This document shows, piece after piece, positions 20,428 through 30,916 of a stretch of DNA of 64,000 nt. The translations under genes and the position numbers were made by a program. The notes under the pieces are model-generated. The model was not told where the DNA came from, searched no databases, and saw only the letters and a program-made list of their open reading frames with translations. Source of the DNA: Candidatus Desulfofervidaceae bacterium (GTDB lineage Bacteria; Desulfobacterota; Desulfofervidia; Desulfofervidales; Desulfofervidaceae); contig JALWFG010000005.1 in NCBI GenBank assembly GCA_027038965.1, positions 248,001 through 312,000 of the forward strand, in the 5' to 3' direction. Positions within the stretch are counted from its first letter, which is position 1; each line of letters starts with the position of its first letter.

Positions 20428-20444
20428 TGTGTCAAATTGACACA
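20428..20444. promoter_or_regulatory. 17-bp perfect palindrome upstream of the dcw promoter
   Basis: TGTGTCAA-A-TTGACACA is a perfect inverted repeat whose near edge lies 10 bases upstream of the mraZ -35 hexamer. The position fits a second regulator of the dcw promoter; the binding protein is unknown. Confidence 0.5.
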
Positions 20445-20840: not shown

Positions 20841-21050
20841 AGCGAGAAAGCCCTGCTTTTTAAAGCAGGGATGAATCGCACGGCGTAAGCTGTTGAAATT
20901 AGCAGTTTAAGGGGTAAAATATAAGTTAATTGGAGAAGGAAAACTCTCTAAAACCCTACCCGTGGACTGCGGGAAAGTAACGCCTGTGGAGTGGGAGTTA
21001 TCTCACTATGAAGCAGGAAGCCCCTCATTTCAATGAGGGGAGGAAGTCAC
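20841..21050 (+). mobile_element. Eroded 3' end of an IS200/IS605-type tnpB element
   Basis: One frame (20911-21036) reads through to a tail containing LPVDCGKVTPVEWE and then EAGSPSFQ before a TGA that lies inside a terminal hairpin; short tails of this kind are typical of TnpB C-termini. The upstream part (20847 onward) is open in another frame (KALLFKAGMNRTA) and then hits stops, so the gene is broken. No TnpA or catalytic TnpB domain (RuvC-like) remains. The right edge GAAGCAGGAAGCCCC-hairpin-GGGGAGGAAGTCAC matches what I recall of IS605 right ends. The IS family call rests on memory of these motifs, not on a search. Confidence 0.6.
20940..21050 (+). ncRNA. Omega-RNA-like structured tail of the tnpB remnant
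   Basis: Perfect 9-bp stem CCCCTCATT/AATGAGGGG (21021-21040) follows a GTGGGAG/TCTCAC stem (about 20991-21006) and the GAAGCAGGAAGC linker. In IS605 elements this 3' region is transcribed as the guide RNA of TnpB, with the guide drawn from the bases just beyond the element, here from about 21051. Another perfect 9-bp stem CCCTGCTTT/AAAGCAGGG is at 20851-20870. Transcription is not shown. Confidence 0.45.
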
Positions 21051-21080: not shown

Positions 21081-22433
21081 ATGGCTAAAAGGCGTTTTCT
21101 TTTAATCAATCCTTGGATTTACGATTTTGCGGCCCATGATTTTTGGGCTAAGCCGTTAGGGCTTTTATACATTGCTAGCTGGCTTCGCAAAAACGGAGCT
21201 GAAGTATATCTTCTAGACTGCCTTGATATACACCACCCCCAGATGCCATTTGAACCCCATATCAAGCAGGCTTCAAGGCGAGCATACGGAACAGGTAAAT
21301 TTTTTAGACAACCCATTCCCAAACCAGTGTTTTTTCAGGATATCCCGCGTTATTACTACCGTTATGGTCTTACCTACCGAATCTTTAAAGAAGAGCTTGA
21401 CAAGATTCCTATACCTGATGCCATTTTAGTTACCTCTGGAATGACCTATTGGTACCCAGGGGTGTTTGCAGTCATCTATTTTTGTAAACAGAAATGGCCC
21501 CATATTCCTATTATCCTAGGAGGTATTTATGCCACCTTATGCCATTCACATGCCTTAAATTATAGCGGGGCTGATTTTGTCCTGAAAGGACCAGCCGAAA
21601 ATTCATTAATGTCCCTTTTGGAACAAATCTGTAATTTAAAACCAGAATATATCCCCAAAATGGAATATGATCCCTATGCGCCCTACCCTGCCTTTGACCT
21701 ACTCAGAAAACTTGATTATGTGTGTATCCTTACCTCTAGGGGATGCCCTTTTAGGTGTCAATATTGTGCCTCTTCTGCCCTTTTTCCCTTCTTTTATCAA
21801 AGACCACCAGAAACAGTATATCAAGAAATCGTTTACTGGCATAAAAACTACGGAGTAAAGGAATTTGCCTTTTATGACGATGCCTTACTCGTAAATGCCT
21901 CCCAACATGCCATTCCCCTATTTGAGATGATTATCAAGGCCAAGCTTGACATTCACCTCCATACTCCAAATGGCCTTCATGCCCGTTTTATCACGGCCAA
22001 AGTAGCTCAAAAGATGTTTCAAGCCGGGGTCAAAACCGTAAGACTTGGATTGGAAACCATCAGTCCTAACCGCCACGACCAAAAATTAACCAGAGAAGAA
22101 TTCATTAGGGCCATCCGATACCTTCAGGAAGCAGGCTTTACCAGAGAGCAAATTGGGGCCTATATCCTCGTGGGACTTCCGAATCAAACCAAACAGGAAA
22201 TAGAACAAACGGTCTCTTTTGCCCAAAAATTGGGTGTTACCCCTCGTTTGGCAGAATATTCTCCTATTCCTTTTACCAAGCTTTGGAGTGAAGCCATCAA
22301 AATTTGTAGCCATGAAATTGACAAAGAACCCCTCTTTCACAACAACTCCCTCCTCCCTTGTGCCCATAAAAACCTTAGTTTTTCTGAGTTAAAAGAAATA
22401 AAAAGAAAAATTTGGCACACCTCTTGCATCTAA
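21081..22433 (+). CDS. B12-binding-type radical SAM protein
   Basis: A 450-residue protein. The N-terminal part (about residues 5-190: RFLLINPWIYDF, GLLYIASWLRKNGAEVYLLDCLD) is a cobalamin-binding-like Rossmann domain. Cys222, Cys226 and Cys229 in RGCPFRCQYC are the CX3CX2C cluster ligands of the radical SAM core. A motif GLETISPNRHD and GAYILVGLPNQ follow, as in MiaB/BchE-like proteins. The substrate is unknown. The ribosome-binding site is weak. The 3' end of the gene contains the sigma-54-type promoter of the next gene. Confidence 0.88.
   Translation: MAKRRFLLINPWIYDFAAHDFWAKPLGLLYIASWLRKNGAEVYLLDCLDIHHPQMPFEPHIKQASRRAYGTGKFFRQPIPKPVFFQDIPRYYYRYGLTYRIFKEELDKIPIPDAILVTSGMTYWYPGVFAVIYFCKQKWPHIPIILGGIYATLCHSHALNYSGADFVLKGPAENSLMSLLEQICNLKPEYIPKMEYDPYAPYPAFDLLRKLDYVCILTSRGCPFRCQYCASSALFPFFYQRPPETVYQEIVYWHKNYGVKEFAFYDDALLVNASQHAIPLFEMIIKAKLDIHLHTPNGLHARFITAKVAQKMFQAGVKTVRLGLETISPNRHDQKLTREEFIRAIRYLQEAGFTREQIGAYILVGLPNQTKQEIEQTVSFAQKLGVTPRLAEYSPIPFTKLWSEAIKICSHEIDKEPLFHNNSLLPCAHKNLSFSELKEIKRKIWHTSCI
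22412..22429 (+). promoter_or_regulatory. Near-consensus sigma-54 promoter before the composite regulator
   Basis: TTGGCACACCTCTTGCAT holds GG (22414-22415) and GC (22426-22427) exactly 10 bases apart and matches TTGGCAC-N5-TTGCA. It lies in the last codons of the radical SAM gene, about 52 bases before the next start codon, so transcription would begin near 22439. Confidence 0.7.
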
Positions 22434-22481: not shown

Positions 22482-23420
22482 ATGAAGTCGGCAGTAAAAG
22501 AAGTTACAACTTTTGGAGACATGGTTAATTTCAAGCGTTTGGAGAAATTTAAGAATTACCCAGTAGAATGCCTAGTTTTAAATGAAAGGGAAGCAAAGCT
22601 TTGCAAGGTTTTGAATATAAACACCCTTGGCAAATTGGCGGCTACACCAGTAAACAAGGCATTGACTATTCGCAACCTGTGGCATCGTTCGGTAAAGAGC
22701 CTAATGCGCAAACTGTGCGATTTTGTCACAAACTGGGAAGAAGTAGAAAGGGAGTTTCTCGATACACCTTTTAAAGAAATTTTGCAAAAAATGGCACGCT
22801 TTGTGCCAGAAAAGGAACGGGTCTTCTTTATCAGACGCTACTTTTATGGGGAAACACTAAATGAAATTGGAAAGGATTATGGGTTTACAAGGGAAGCGGT
22901 AAGACAAAAACTTCTCAAGGCCAAAAGGAGCTTGCAAACGCCCAATTGGGAAAAGCTAATCACATTATACCTTAAGATTCACATTGCACCACTCATCAAA
23001 GATGCAGAAGGGAGGCTTTTACCAAAAGAGGAAGTAAGGACAAGACTTAAAGAGGCCTTTAAGGATTATCTTCCTGTTGCCTGCGCTACCTTCATCTTGT
23101 TGGAGCAACTTTACTTTGAAAACAAACGGACTGAGTGTGCTAAAATTGTCAGACTCGCCCGAAAGATATTAGAAAATGAAGTAAAATGCACCTTTGATTC
23201 TCATTACCGTCGCATCTGTCGTCAAGGAGAAATCGGGAAGAAAATTCGCATGCTACGCAAGCTTCAAGGATGGACCCAAGCCGATTTGGCCAAACAGGTT
23301 GGTTGTGCTAGGATTACTGTAAACATGTGGGAACAGGGCAGATCTATTCCCAAAGGTAAGAATTTAGAACGAATTGCCAAGACCTTTGGGCTTCCTAAAG
23401 AGGCCTTGGTAATGGGTTAA
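22482..23420 (+). CDS. Composite regulator: alpha-CTD-like, sigma region-4-like and XRE domains
   Basis: A 312-residue protein with three recognisable parts. Residues about 27-82 (YPVECLVLNEREAKLCKVLNI, then TIRNLWHRSVKSL) follow the pattern of the RNA polymerase alpha C-terminal domain. Residues about 95-155 (FVPEKERVFFIRRYF, TLNEIGKDYGFTREAVRQKL) match a sigma-70 region 4 helix-turn-helix. Residues about 245-305 (IGKKIRMLRKLQGWTQADLAKQVG) are an XRE/HTH_3 domain. No sigma region 2 is present, so it is unlikely to be a full sigma factor. The ribosome-binding site AAAGGGG is near ATG 22482. Domain calls are from motif patterns; targets are unknown. Confidence 0.82.
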   Translation: MKSAVKEVTTFGDMVNFKRLEKFKNYPVECLVLNEREAKLCKVLNINTLGKLAATPVNKALTIRNLWHRSVKSLMRKLCDFVTNWEEVEREFLDTPFKEILQKMARFVPEKERVFFIRRYFYGETLNEIGKDYGFTREAVRQKLLKAKRSLQTPNWEKLITLYLKIHIAPLIKDAEGRLLPKEEVRTRLKEAFKDYLPVACATFILLEQLYFENKRTECAKIVRLARKILENEVKCTFDSHYRRICRQGEIGKKIRMLRKLQGWTQADLAKQVGCARITVNMWEQGRSIPKGKNLERIAKTFGLPKEALVMG

Positions 23421-23434
23421 TACAATAGCTGGAC

Positions 23435-23476
23435 AGGGCATTGGCCTTTGCAAGGTTAATGCCCTTTAATTGTTTT
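23435..23476 (+). terminator. Terminator between convergent genes
   Basis: AGGGCATT (23435-23442) pairs with AATGCCCT (23458-23465), with an inner CCTT/AAGG stem, and is followed by TTAATTGTTTTT. It ends the composite-regulator transcript and overlaps the last codons of the convergent ATP-grasp gene. Confidence 0.75.
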
Positions 23477-24298
23477 TAGCCATTTCTCCACTTCTTTACC
23501 AAGAAGTTCGTAAAACGAGTCACTTCCGCCTAAGGCCTTGCGGCCAAAATAGTAGTTTATTTCCAAAAGGAGTGGTTGAGTACCTTGAGGGCAAAGGACG
23601 TCAATGGCCGCTAGATTGATCCCCGTTTTTTGGCACAGAGTATCTATATAAGGCCCTACATTTGCCTTTACATCCGAAGATACATTCGGATCTATTTTAC
23701 CCCCTTGGGCCAGGTTACTTTTCCAATCGCTACCATGTTTCATCCTCCAATAAAAAAATCTTTGGGTCCCAATAACAACCACCCTTAAGTCCCTATTTTG
23801 ATGGGCAATAAATTCTTGCAGAATAAAACCATGCCAACCTTGATTTTTTTCCAAAGAAAAAAGGAGGTCTAGAGTTTGCTTTAAATCTCCCTCATCTTTT
23901 ACCAAAAAAACCATATTTCCTTCCCCGCCCCGATCCCCTTTTACTACAAAGGGATAGGTAAAAGGGAGGGCCCTTCCCATTTCAAAATGCAGTTTATAAA
24001 AATGATTCACCTCAGGATAGATTACAGTGCGAGGATGGGGTAGCCTAAGGGATTTCCACAATAGGGCATCTCCTATCTTGCCTTCACCCGGGAAACGATA
24101 ATCATAATTAGGGAAAACATGATGGCAATATTGACGGCAATACCAATAAACGTCGGCCTTACACCCCTGAGGCAAAATTACGGCCTTAGCCTTTTTTATC
24201 AAATCTTTTTGAGAAGACGATAGTGATTTATCACCAAGCAATAAATTAAGGTCTGCCTCAAAACAGGGATGTAAAGAAACTACAGGGAAATTCAACAT
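23456..24298 (-). CDS. RimK-like ATP-grasp ligase
   Basis: A 280-residue protein with the ATP-grasp arrangement: PFVVKGDRGGEGNMVFL (ATP-binding lysine and glycine loop), FILQEFI, DLRVVVIG, NLAQGGKI and the metal-binding LLEINYYFG near the C-terminus. Enzymes of this family join a carboxylate to an amine or thiol with ATP, as in RimK or glutathione synthetase. It overlaps cimA by 7 bases and ends the lysC-cimA transcript, but the substrate cannot be read from the sequence. Confidence 0.85.
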   Translation of the reverse strand: MLNFPVVSLHPCFEADLNLLLGDKSLSSSQKDLIKKAKAVILPQGCKADVYWYCRQYCHHVFPNYDYRFPGEGKIGDALLWKSLRLPHPRTVIYPEVNHFYKLHFEMGRALPFTYPFVVKGDRGGEGNMVFLVKDEGDLKQTLDLLFSLEKNQGWHGFILQEFIAHQNRDLRVVVIGTQRFFYWRMKHGSDWKSNLAQGGKIDPNVSSDVKANVGPYIDTLCQKTGINLAAIDVLCPQGTQPLLLEINYYFGRKALGGSDSFYELLGKEVEKWLKTIKGH

Positions 24299-27451: not shown

Positions 27452-30400
27452 ATGCATCTAAATCAAAATAAAGACCTAAAAACTGTTGTAGTCTTGGGAA
27501 ATCCAAGATCAGGAGCCTCTACTATCGCTGGAATGCTTTCTATTCTTGGAGTGGAAATGTCAGGGAGCAAGATACCATTACCAGTGGCTCCAAAAGGAAG
27601 TTATGAAGATCCAGAATTTTCCCAATTAATCAAAAAGATTTTTATAAAAACTTTGAATTATAAAGGTAATTGGGATGGTTCTATATATTGGGGAAGTTTA
27701 GAAAGATTATATTATCTTCGAAACAAGATTTTGTTCCAAGGAGATAATTTTAACAAGGAAATCAAAAACCTAATTTTAAATAAGGGAAAAAATAAAATAA
27801 CATGGGGGTGGAAATATCCTGCTACTCACTTGGTAATAGAGCTTTTTCTTCCCTATTTAATCAATCCTCATTTTGTCGTATGCTTTAGAGACCCTCTAAA
27901 AGTAGCTCAATCTTCTCAAGAGTTTTTTTCTCTAATGGGGATTCGAAAAGAAATAAGCATTTTTCAAATGCTAAAGGCAATAAATTTCCATAATAGAATT
28001 ATTCTAAACTTTCTAGAAAGGCATCCAGACCTACCAAGAATTTTTGTTGCTTTTGAAGATGTGATAGAGAATCCAATCAAGGAAGCCAAAAGACTGGCCG
28101 ATTTTCTTGGCTTAGAATTAACCGAGGAAAAGAAAAGGGAGATTAACGACTTTGTTATCCCTAAAGACAGGATTAAAAAAGAAAAGGAAAAGCTTGCTGG
28201 TGGTCTTGGATTAAAATTAAATTTTTATGAAAAATTGGCTTCCTTAAAAACCTCTAGGGGTTCAGAGAAGAAAAACAAAGAGGTCTTTATTCTTTCTCCT
28301 CTAAATTATTCTAAAAAATATACCTATTTTGAGTCCCCACGCCCCGAGATCGTTGAACTTATTACTGAAGACACGAAGCACATTTTAGATGTGGGTTGTG
28401 GGACTGGCCGTTATGGAGCCATGATAAAAAGCAAATACCCCCACTGTGAGATAACCGGCATTGAAATCATTCCAGAGATAGCCGAAGAGGCCAGACGAAA
28501 TCTAGATAAAGTAATTGTAGGAAATGTAGAAGATGTAGACCTTGGGGAATTGGGATTTGAAGATGGATATTTTGACTGCATTATCTATGCGGATATTTTA
28601 GAACATCTAAACGACCCCTGGACAGTCGTTTATAGACATAAGAAATTTTTAAAAGATGGCGGTAAAATTATAGCAAGTATTCCCAATATCCGCAATCTCC
28701 AAATTCTTACTCCTCTTTTGAATGAAGGTCGATGGACTTATAAAGATGAAGGAATCCTAGATGCAACCCATCTGCGTTTCTTTACACGTAAGGAAATTGA
28801 AAGAATGTTTTCAAAATTAGGTTTTAGAATTAAGGGCATAAAAGCTAATCCCGATGTCTATAAACCTTCATCAAAAGATGAAAGAACATTTAAGATAGAA
28901 ACAGAAAAAGTTACAATTAAAAATCTATCTCCAGAAGAATTTGAGGAATTTAATGTAATCCAATTTATAATTGAGGCAGAGAAAGTCAAAGGACATAGGC
29001 CACTCTGTTCAATTGTTATGCCTGTCTTTAACAAATTAGAATACACAAAACAGTGTGTAGAGGCCCTTTATGATAGTACATTAAGTTCGCTTTTTGAGCT
29101 TATCATCGTCAATAATGCCTCTAGTGATGGAACAAAGGAATATTTGGATCAACTGGTTGCCCAGGTGAATAATGTAAAAGTCATTCACAATCAGGAAAAC
29201 CTCGGCTTTGCCAAGGCATGTAATCAGGGAGCACGGGTGGCAGAAGGAAAGTATTTAGTATTTTTGAATAATGATACCTTGCCTCTTGAAGGCTGGCTAG
29301 AAGAAATGCTCAAGGTAATAGAAAATGAAGGGCAAGTGGGAGCAGTAGGTAGCAAATTACTATTTCCTGACGATACCATTCAACACGCTGGAGTGGGAAT
29401 TACAGATAGTCCCCTGCCTGTAAGTCCTTTCCATCTTTATTATAAAAAGCCTGCTGATTATCCCAAAGCCAATATCAAAAGAGATTATCAAGTAGTTACT
29501 GGCGCCTGTATGTTAATTGCCAAAGAACTCTTTGATAGATTAGGTGGTTTTGATGAAGGATTTTTAAATGGATATGAGGATGTAGATCTGTGTTTTCGGG
29601 TAAGGGAGGCAGGTTATAGAGTGGTTTATACCCCCAAAAGTGTACTTTATCACTTTGAATCAGTTACCCCCGGTAGATTTAAGGCTGTAAAAGAAAATGA
29701 AGAGCGGCTTCAAAAAAAATGGGCGGGAAAGATTAAACCAGACGTAGAAGTTTATTTCCCTAAGGTTTCTGTCATAATTTTGAATTATAACAACTCTCAG
29801 CATACCACCAAATGCCTAGCATCTATCTACAAAAATATCAAATATGAACGGGTTCAGGTAATTGTTATAGATAATGGTTCTAGGACAGAAGATGTATCAA
29901 CACTTAAAAAGTGGATTAATTCTCAAAATGTAGAGTCTATATTTTGCCATAAAGGGCATTTTTCCTATCAAGACGAACCCTTTAAAAGAGAACTAATTTT
30001 TATAGAAAATCAGGAAAATCTTGGTTTTGCGGGCGGGAACAATGTAGGAATTAAATATGCCCTCAACAGCGGGGCAGATTATATATGGTTGCTAAACAAC
30101 GACACGGTTGTAGAAAGGGAAACCTTGGAAAGTTCTCTTTTATTGGCTGAACGGCTAAAGGCAGAAAAGCAAGAAAAAGTAGGTATCATCTCCTCAAAAA
30201 TCTATTGTTATGACGACAAAAGTAAAGTCCAATACGATGGGGAGAAACCTCTTTATAAGGGTATGCCAGATAAAAAAGATGAATTACCTCGCCAGGTAGA
30301 ATTTGCCCCTGGATGCAGTTTATTGATTGACCGCAGGCTTTTTGAAGAAATTGGGTTGTTAAATGAGGACTATTTTCTTTATTATGAAGATACAGAGTTT

Positions 30401-30916
30401 TGCATGAGGGCCTTAAAGGCGGGTTGGACGATCTGGTATAATCCTTATTCCAAGGTTTATCATAAAGGTGGTGCCTCTGTTGGTCCATGGTTACAATCAC
30501 CACTTAGTGCCTATTATGCCACAAGGAATATTCTATTATGCCAATTTCAGACCAATCCTGTAAAAGTAAGCCAAATCTTTGCCTATTTGAAAAATGGCCA
30601 TTGGGGTGAACTTAAAAAGACGCCAGAATGTATCTTTGCCTTCGTAGAAGGCATAAAAGATTTTCTTAAAGGCAAAAAGGGAAAAAAGGAAATAAGACCT
30701 GAAGTCATAGACAGTTGCTTGAAAGAAATAAAAAATGGCAATGTTCAAGTCCCAGAGAATTTAGAGGAAAGATTGGAGGCCAGTGGAAACTTGCTAATTT
30801 TAAATCCTGAAAAAAGGGAAGTCTTAGAACAGTTTGTTAATATCGCTCAGGGTCTGTTTTTTAAAAACTATGCCAAATTGGCTATGAACACCAAAGTGAA
30901 TCAATGCGTAAGATAA
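27452..30916 (+). CDS. Four-domain fusion: sulfotransferase-like, methyltransferase, two GT2 glycosyltransferases
   Basis: A 1154-residue protein. Residues 1-265 resemble sulfotransferases, with the P-loop GNPRSGASTIAGML near residue 16 and a DPLKVAQSSQ segment. Residues about 300-470 are a class I SAM-dependent methyltransferase (LDVGCGTGRYG near 312, ADILEHLNDP). Residues about 517-760 are a first GT2 domain (CSIVMPVFNKLEYTKQC, NNDT) and residues about 770-1060 a second (SVIILNYNNSQHTTKC, NNDT). The last 90 residues are unassigned. A strong AAGGAGG site precedes ATG 27452. It probably builds and decorates a surface or flagellar glycan; the acceptor is unknown. Confidence 0.88.
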   Translation: MHLNQNKDLKTVVVLGNPRSGASTIAGMLSILGVEMSGSKIPLPVAPKGSYEDPEFSQLIKKIFIKTLNYKGNWDGSIYWGSLERLYYLRNKILFQGDNFNKEIKNLILNKGKNKITWGWKYPATHLVIELFLPYLINPHFVVCFRDPLKVAQSSQEFFSLMGIRKEISIFQMLKAINFHNRIILNFLERHPDLPRIFVAFEDVIENPIKEAKRLADFLGLELTEEKKREINDFVIPKDRIKKEKEKLAGGLGLKLNFYEKLASLKTSRGSEKKNKEVFILSPLNYSKKYTYFESPRPEIVELITEDTKHILDVGCGTGRYGAMIKSKYPHCEITGIEIIPEIAEEARRNLDKVIVGNVEDVDLGELGFEDGYFDCIIYADILEHLNDPWTVVYRHKKFLKDGGKIIASIPNIRNLQILTPLLNEGRWTYKDEGILDATHLRFFTRKEIERMFSKLGFRIKGIKANPDVYKPSSKDERTFKIETEKVTIKNLSPEEFEEFNVIQFIIEAEKVKGHRPLCSIVMPVFNKLEYTKQCVEALYDSTLSSLFELIIVNNASSDGTKEYLDQLVAQVNNVKVIHNQENLGFAKACNQGARVAEGKYLVFLNNDTLPLEGWLEEMLKVIENEGQVGAVGSKLLFPDDTIQHAGVGITDSPLPVSPFHLYYKKPADYPKANIKRDYQVVTGACMLIAKELFDRLGGFDEGFLNGYEDVDLCFRVREAGYRVVYTPKSVLYHFESVTPGRFKAVKENEERLQKKWAGKIKPDVEVYFPKVSVIILNYNNSQHTTKCLASIYKNIKYERVQVIVIDNGSRTEDVSTLKKWINSQNVESIFCHKGHFSYQDEPFKRELIFIENQENLGFAGGNNVGIKYALNSGADYIWLLNNDTVVERETLESSLLLAERLKAEKQEKVGIISSKIYCYDDKSKVQYDGEKPLYKGMPDKKDELPRQVEFAPGCSLLIDRRLFEEIGLLNEDYFLYYEDTEFCMRALKAGWTIWYNPYSKVYHKGGASVGPWLQSPLSAYYATRNILLCQFQTNPVKVSQIFAYLKNGHWGELKKTPECIFAFVEGIKDFLKGKKGKKEIRPEVIDSCLKEIKNGNVQVPENLEERLEASGNLLILNPEKREVLEQFVNIAQGLFFKNYAKLAMNTKVNQCVR

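Follow-up and report, generated by a model that had tools for sequence, protein, structure and literature searches.

The window analysed here is a 64,000-nucleotide stretch of a genome of about 2.19 Mb. The host is a hot-vent sulfate-reducing bacterium whose named relatives are 'Candidatus Desulfofervidaceae' MAGs, and order-level relatives carry the same regulator. A sequence-only reading of the locus had placed alpha-CTD-like, sigma region-4-like and XRE domains in one 312-residue chain, and all three were recognised in our analysis. The genes and features of the locus are as follows.

21081..22433, plus strand: B12-binding radical SAM protein of 450 aa, directly upstream of the regulator (PF04055, PF02310)
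22482..23420, plus strand: composite regulator P0001, 312 aa (ORF from ATG to stop; orthologs)
22545..22724, plus strand: RNA polymerase alpha-CTD-like domain, residues 22-81 (weak PF03118; hhalign with controls; Foldseek)
22764..22976, plus strand: sigma-70 region 4 with RpoD-like -35 recognition helix (TREAVRQ), residues 95-165 (PF04545, TIGR02937, Foldseek, own RpoD)
22977..23228, plus strand: helical segment joining region 4 to the XRE domain, residues 166-249 (AlphaFold model; per-domain conservation)
23229..23417, plus strand: XRE (Cro/C1-type) DNA-binding domain, residues 250-312 (PF01381; Foldseek)
23435..23465, plus strand: terminator-like stem of 14 pairs just 3' of the regulator, at the convergent end (pattern match only)
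23456..24298, minus strand: RimK-like ATP-grasp protein, convergent with the regulator (PF08443)

Comparison with the nearest ortholog reveals 194 differing codons, 136 of them (136/194) altered by synonymous change only, a pattern that fits a protein-coding gene under purifying selection. Full-length orthologs are present in five of the six Desulfofervidales genomes, query included; the other four are 62-82% identical to the query, and all five are co-linear end to end. The three-domain regulator is therefore a real, conserved combination, and the whole 312-aa protein is modelled by AlphaFold with a pLDDT of 81.9. No full-length ortholog was found elsewhere among 395 sampled genomes of the phylum (profile search, E 1e-5), and a one-genome-per-species scan, which detects close relatives only, returned two loci, both from Desulfofervidaceae. 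So far, the regulator is seen only in this order, which includes partners of methane-oxidising archaea.

Assignment of the N-terminal domain required careful comparison. The PF03118 match over residues 22-81 has an E-value of 0.053 in the query, under threshold, and of 9.5e-4 in ortholog P0005; since a whole-genome scan also gave other proteins from related genomes, LigA-like ones among them, similarly weak PF03118 scores, Pfam alone is insufficient for an alpha-CTD call. In profile-profile comparison (hhalign) with an RpoA-CTD profile built from 17 genomes of the phylum, the N-terminal part of the query gives an ungapped 59-column alignment with a score of 29.5, whereas 200 column shuffles average 11.3 (sd 2.5) and peak at 19.1. 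Among control proteins with weak PF03118 matches no score exceeds 22.6 and no alignment 43 columns, clearly below the query, and a generic HhH in place of an alpha-CTD was rejected on this basis. Foldseek analysis of the N-terminal half retrieves the RpoA-CTDs 9dvt_A (TMt 0.77), 7vpd_S (0.80) and 8hih_G (0.75) at rmsd 1.4-1.7, as well as sigma domain 4 (4g6d_A, 0.74), and no HhH family other than RpoA-CTD among the 50 matches listed. Because the E-values of these fold matches are weak (0.06-0.5) and confidence in the half model is moderate (AlphaFold2, mean pLDDT 67.5), the call rests on the agreement of the three tests. Residues 22-81 thus share the fold and HhH core of RpoA-CTD (PF03118), with about 22% identity to the template and a divergent sequence. 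In contrast to the RNA polymerase alpha subunit, the regulator has no NTD (no alpha-NTD match in Pfam), and a separate, normal rpoA-type gene is present in its genome (G000:C19).

The DNA-contacting surface of this domain is kept in part. In the ortholog alignment it retains the equivalents of R265, N294 and S299 (R36, N65 and S70; E. coli alpha numbering first) and a basic residue at K298 (R/K69). In all five orthologs, N268 is replaced by K, G296 by W and E302 by S, and with these equivalents altered the complete 265 determinant of the alpha CTD is absent. The invariant Trp at the G296 position makes it doubtful that the alpha-CTD-like part binds DNA, and the residues kept and lost also make it a doubtful reader of canonical UP elements.

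The middle domain matches PF04545 over residues 109-152 of the query (Pfam, E 2.2e-13) and TIGR02937 at 49.4 bits, above the curated cut-off of 42.9. It shares with region 4 of RpoD an HTH bearing the -35 recognition helix TRE..RQ. In this helix the equivalents of R584, E585, R588 and Q589 (E. coli sigma70 numbering; R137, E138, R141 and Q142 of the regulator) are kept and are invariant in 5/5 orthologs, the genome's own RpoD also having been compared; the equivalents of R554 and R586 are gone. In fact, region 4 is the best-conserved part of the regulator, with 50/71 residues invariant and a mean pairwise identity of 0.85, while the helical segment that follows it (30/84 invariant) is the least conserved among the folded parts. 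RpoD possesses regions 1.2, 2 and 3, whereas the regulator is without these, and Pfam scans of the five orthologs gave no match to Sigma70_r2 or r3. Consequently, with neither sigma region 2/3 nor an alpha-NTD, one would not expect the regulator to function alone as a sigma or alpha subunit.

Two expectations of the sequence-only reading are borne out by these data: the alpha-CTD likeness of the N-terminal part held up under HMM comparison and fold search, and the middle HTH, far from being unrelated, is specifically a sigma region 4 whose recognition helix resembles that of RpoD. Its further proposal of promoter binding stands for one domain and less well for the other. Promoter binding is plausible because most -35-contacting residues are retained, and region 4 could plausibly perform -35-type reading, but the DNA-contact set of the alpha-CTD is kept only in part.

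The C-terminal XRE domain provides the strongest match of the regulator (PF01381, E 1.6e-14, residues 255-306) and superimposes on the P22 c2 repressor with a TMt of 0.88 and an rmsd of 0.9 (Foldseek). The fold is common to XRE/Cro-C1 repressors; the regulator differs from P22 c2 in that its XRE domain is placed C-terminally, behind two polymerase-like domains. Matches of the regulator in PADLOC run through the XRE domain only, and a BFVD fold search places XRE/CI repressors on top. A phage or plasmid origin was considered and rejected, as phages, plasmids (tblastn) and viral contigs matched the XRE domain only, among the matches listed.

An alpha-CTD-like domain followed by region 4 without region 2/3, the arrangement of 'sigma factor-like HTH' proteins, describes the regulator, and the tandem of alpha-CTD and region 4 recurs in two further proteins. 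A profile of the N-terminal half, searched against the phylum genomes at E 1e-7, added genome G334, from a different family of this phylum, where both domains were matched; almost all of the remaining matches listed correspond to the region 4 part. The G334 protein (1048 aa; L043 82-3228, G334:C2) has two copies of PF03118 (7e-21), then PF04545 (1.5e-12), and is 28% identical to the regulator over both domains (BLAST E 1e-10, with this one sequence as the only subject). While the domain order is shared, the G334 protein has extra N- and C-terminal parts, an internal duplication and no XRE match, whereas the regulator is compact and carries an XRE domain. The duplication is near-identical, bears the two alpha-CTD copies and precedes region 4; it may have arisen recently or be an artefact of assembly. 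The second protein, WP_063612567.1 (437 aa), is encoded on an Aurantiacibacter atlanticus plasmid and named 'sigma factor-like helix-turn-helix DNA-binding protein'; it shows RNA_pol_A_CTD (E 1.3e-10), then Sigma70_r4 (3.8e-11), and no match to sigma region 2/3. It has a longer N-terminal part, no XRE match and defence-like neighbours on its plasmid, in contrast to the chromosomal, XRE-bearing regulator. We note that its gene (L110 4446-5759, NZ_CP015441.1) adjoins a DEAD/DEAH helicase, an AAA ATPase and a 'DNA modification system-associated small protein', possibly an uncharacterised defence cluster.

The pairing of alpha-CTD and region 4 is therefore not unique, since it recurs in both of these proteins, and PglW of BREX also has an alpha-CTD-like domain (PMC12839542). 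As to the MZA anti-phage system, the regulator scores 17.7 bits against the MzaA cut-off of 800, through region 4 only, and does not qualify as a member; the G334 protein gives a partial MzaA match, likewise via region 4 only. In the literature searched, no paper describing a protein with alpha-CTD, sigma region 4 and XRE together was found, and the added XRE domain and the conserved chromosomal setting look like the new part.

That setting was examined in the other Desulfofervidales genomes. The radical SAM gene directly precedes the regulator in four Desulfofervidaceae genomes: in G003 and G004 the genes run rlmB - B12 radical SAM - regulator - lnt - prfB, in G001, which is of the same genus and where the RimK-like gene also adjoins the regulator, they run rlmB - radical SAM - regulator, and there is radical SAM - regulator in the window, whose genome has rlmB and lnt-prfB on other contigs. 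G005 shows regulator - lnt - prfB, on a contig that breaks off shortly before the regulator. The regulator precedes lnt-prfB in three genomes (G003, G004 and G005). The G005 radical SAM gene sits on another contig with other neighbours, and the regulator-radical SAM pairing is thus not universal. Genome G002 (one contig, 99% complete) retains lnt-prfB and, at the limits used, has no match for the regulator, the radical SAM gene or rlmB; the joint lack of all three suggests that they can disappear as one unit. An obligate link between regulator and radical SAM gene was rejected, as the latter occurs widely across the phylum with no regulator next to it.

Of the parts of RNA polymerase that contact promoters, two are touched by many activators: the alpha-CTD and sigma region 4. 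The reading we favour, to which we give an even chance, is that the regulator is a chromosomal one-component transcription regulator of the Desulfofervidales with up to three DNA-contacting modules, occluding or altering polymerase access at selected promoters. The XRE domain would supply operator specificity and probably bind as a dimer, and region 4 would read a -35-like hexamer. The alpha-CTD-like domain would lie beside region 4, as a real alpha-CTD does at many promoters, and might add a weak DNA or protein contact. The protein would most likely occupy or mark the upstream part of selected promoters, either repressing by occlusion or changing polymerase access. The first candidate target would be its own operon, that is, the radical SAM gene and, in relatives, also rlmB and lnt-prfB.

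A bolder reading, which we consider rather improbable, is that the alpha-CTD and region 4 pair reads the -41/-35 part of a promoter as one unit, with the XRE domain adding operator control, and captures or blocks one promoter class in these thermophiles. The fusion would offer a compact system for testing promoter recognition by the pair without the polymerase core.

The regulator might also recruit or mimic polymerase. In the explicit form of this idea, region 4 would dock on the RNAP beta-flap while the XRE domain anchors the protein at operators, recruiting RNAP or replacing sigma region 4 at weak promoters. This activator built from polymerase parts, the idea of the sequence-only reading, agrees with region 4 being the most conserved domain and with the co-occurrence of both domains in otherwise different proteins, a hint that they act as a unit, but the regulator has no region 2 with which to compete for core, and we regard it as unlikely. 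We would similarly place on the unlikely side an ordinary XRE repressor whose alpha-CTD-like and region-4-like parts bind DNA or oligomerise in a purely generic way, unconnected with RNAP or -35 elements. Its strongest match is indeed XRE, several alpha-CTD contact residues are lost, and many proteins use HhH and HTH folds to bind DNA; however, an RpoD-type recognition helix invariant across the order would not be expected of a generic linker.

The alpha-CTD and sigma region 4 are also contact points for activators and anti-sigma factors, and several Foldseek matches of the N-terminal half are activator or anti-sigma complexes. Still, a decoy or anti-activator that titrates such partners, which normally contact RNAP, would have no need to keep the DNA-reading residues of region 4 and is very improbable. 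Descent from a mobile or conflict system, as a domesticated defence-associated 'sigma factor-like HTH' protein still acting against foreign DNA, is favoured by the neighbours of WP_063612567.1, by the PglW domain (PMC12839542) and by the partial MzaA match of the G334 protein, but it is most unlikely, as the gene in relatives stands in conserved order among the housekeeping genes rlmB, lnt and prfB, not in a defence island, and its own PADLOC matches involve the XRE domain alone.

A palindrome search found no conserved operator near the regulator operon. It did reveal the perfect palindrome TGTGTCAAATTGACACA at window positions 20428-20444, about 40 bp upstream of mraZ, which contains two inverted TTGACA hexamers and has one copy in the genome. 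We rejected it as an autoregulatory operator, as it is singular in the genome and is not conserved ahead of the same genes in relatives, where it stands before unrelated ones.

Two further features of the window were observed. Ahead of the radical SAM gene, at the place that rlmB takes in relatives, lie 700 bp of noncoding DNA; at 20983-21050 (plus strand) they contain a weak Rfam RAGATH-18 match (30.7 bits against a gathering score of 44.9; E 0.0073), single-copy in the genome and followed by the strong hairpin GCCCCTCATTTCAATGAGGGG. This site may be one end of an IS605-type element that has decayed, together with its guide RNA. Farther downstream, the 1154-aa protein encoded at 27452-30916 (plus strand) appears by eye to be a single chain of sulfotransferase-like, methyltransferase-like and two glycosyltransferase-like segments.
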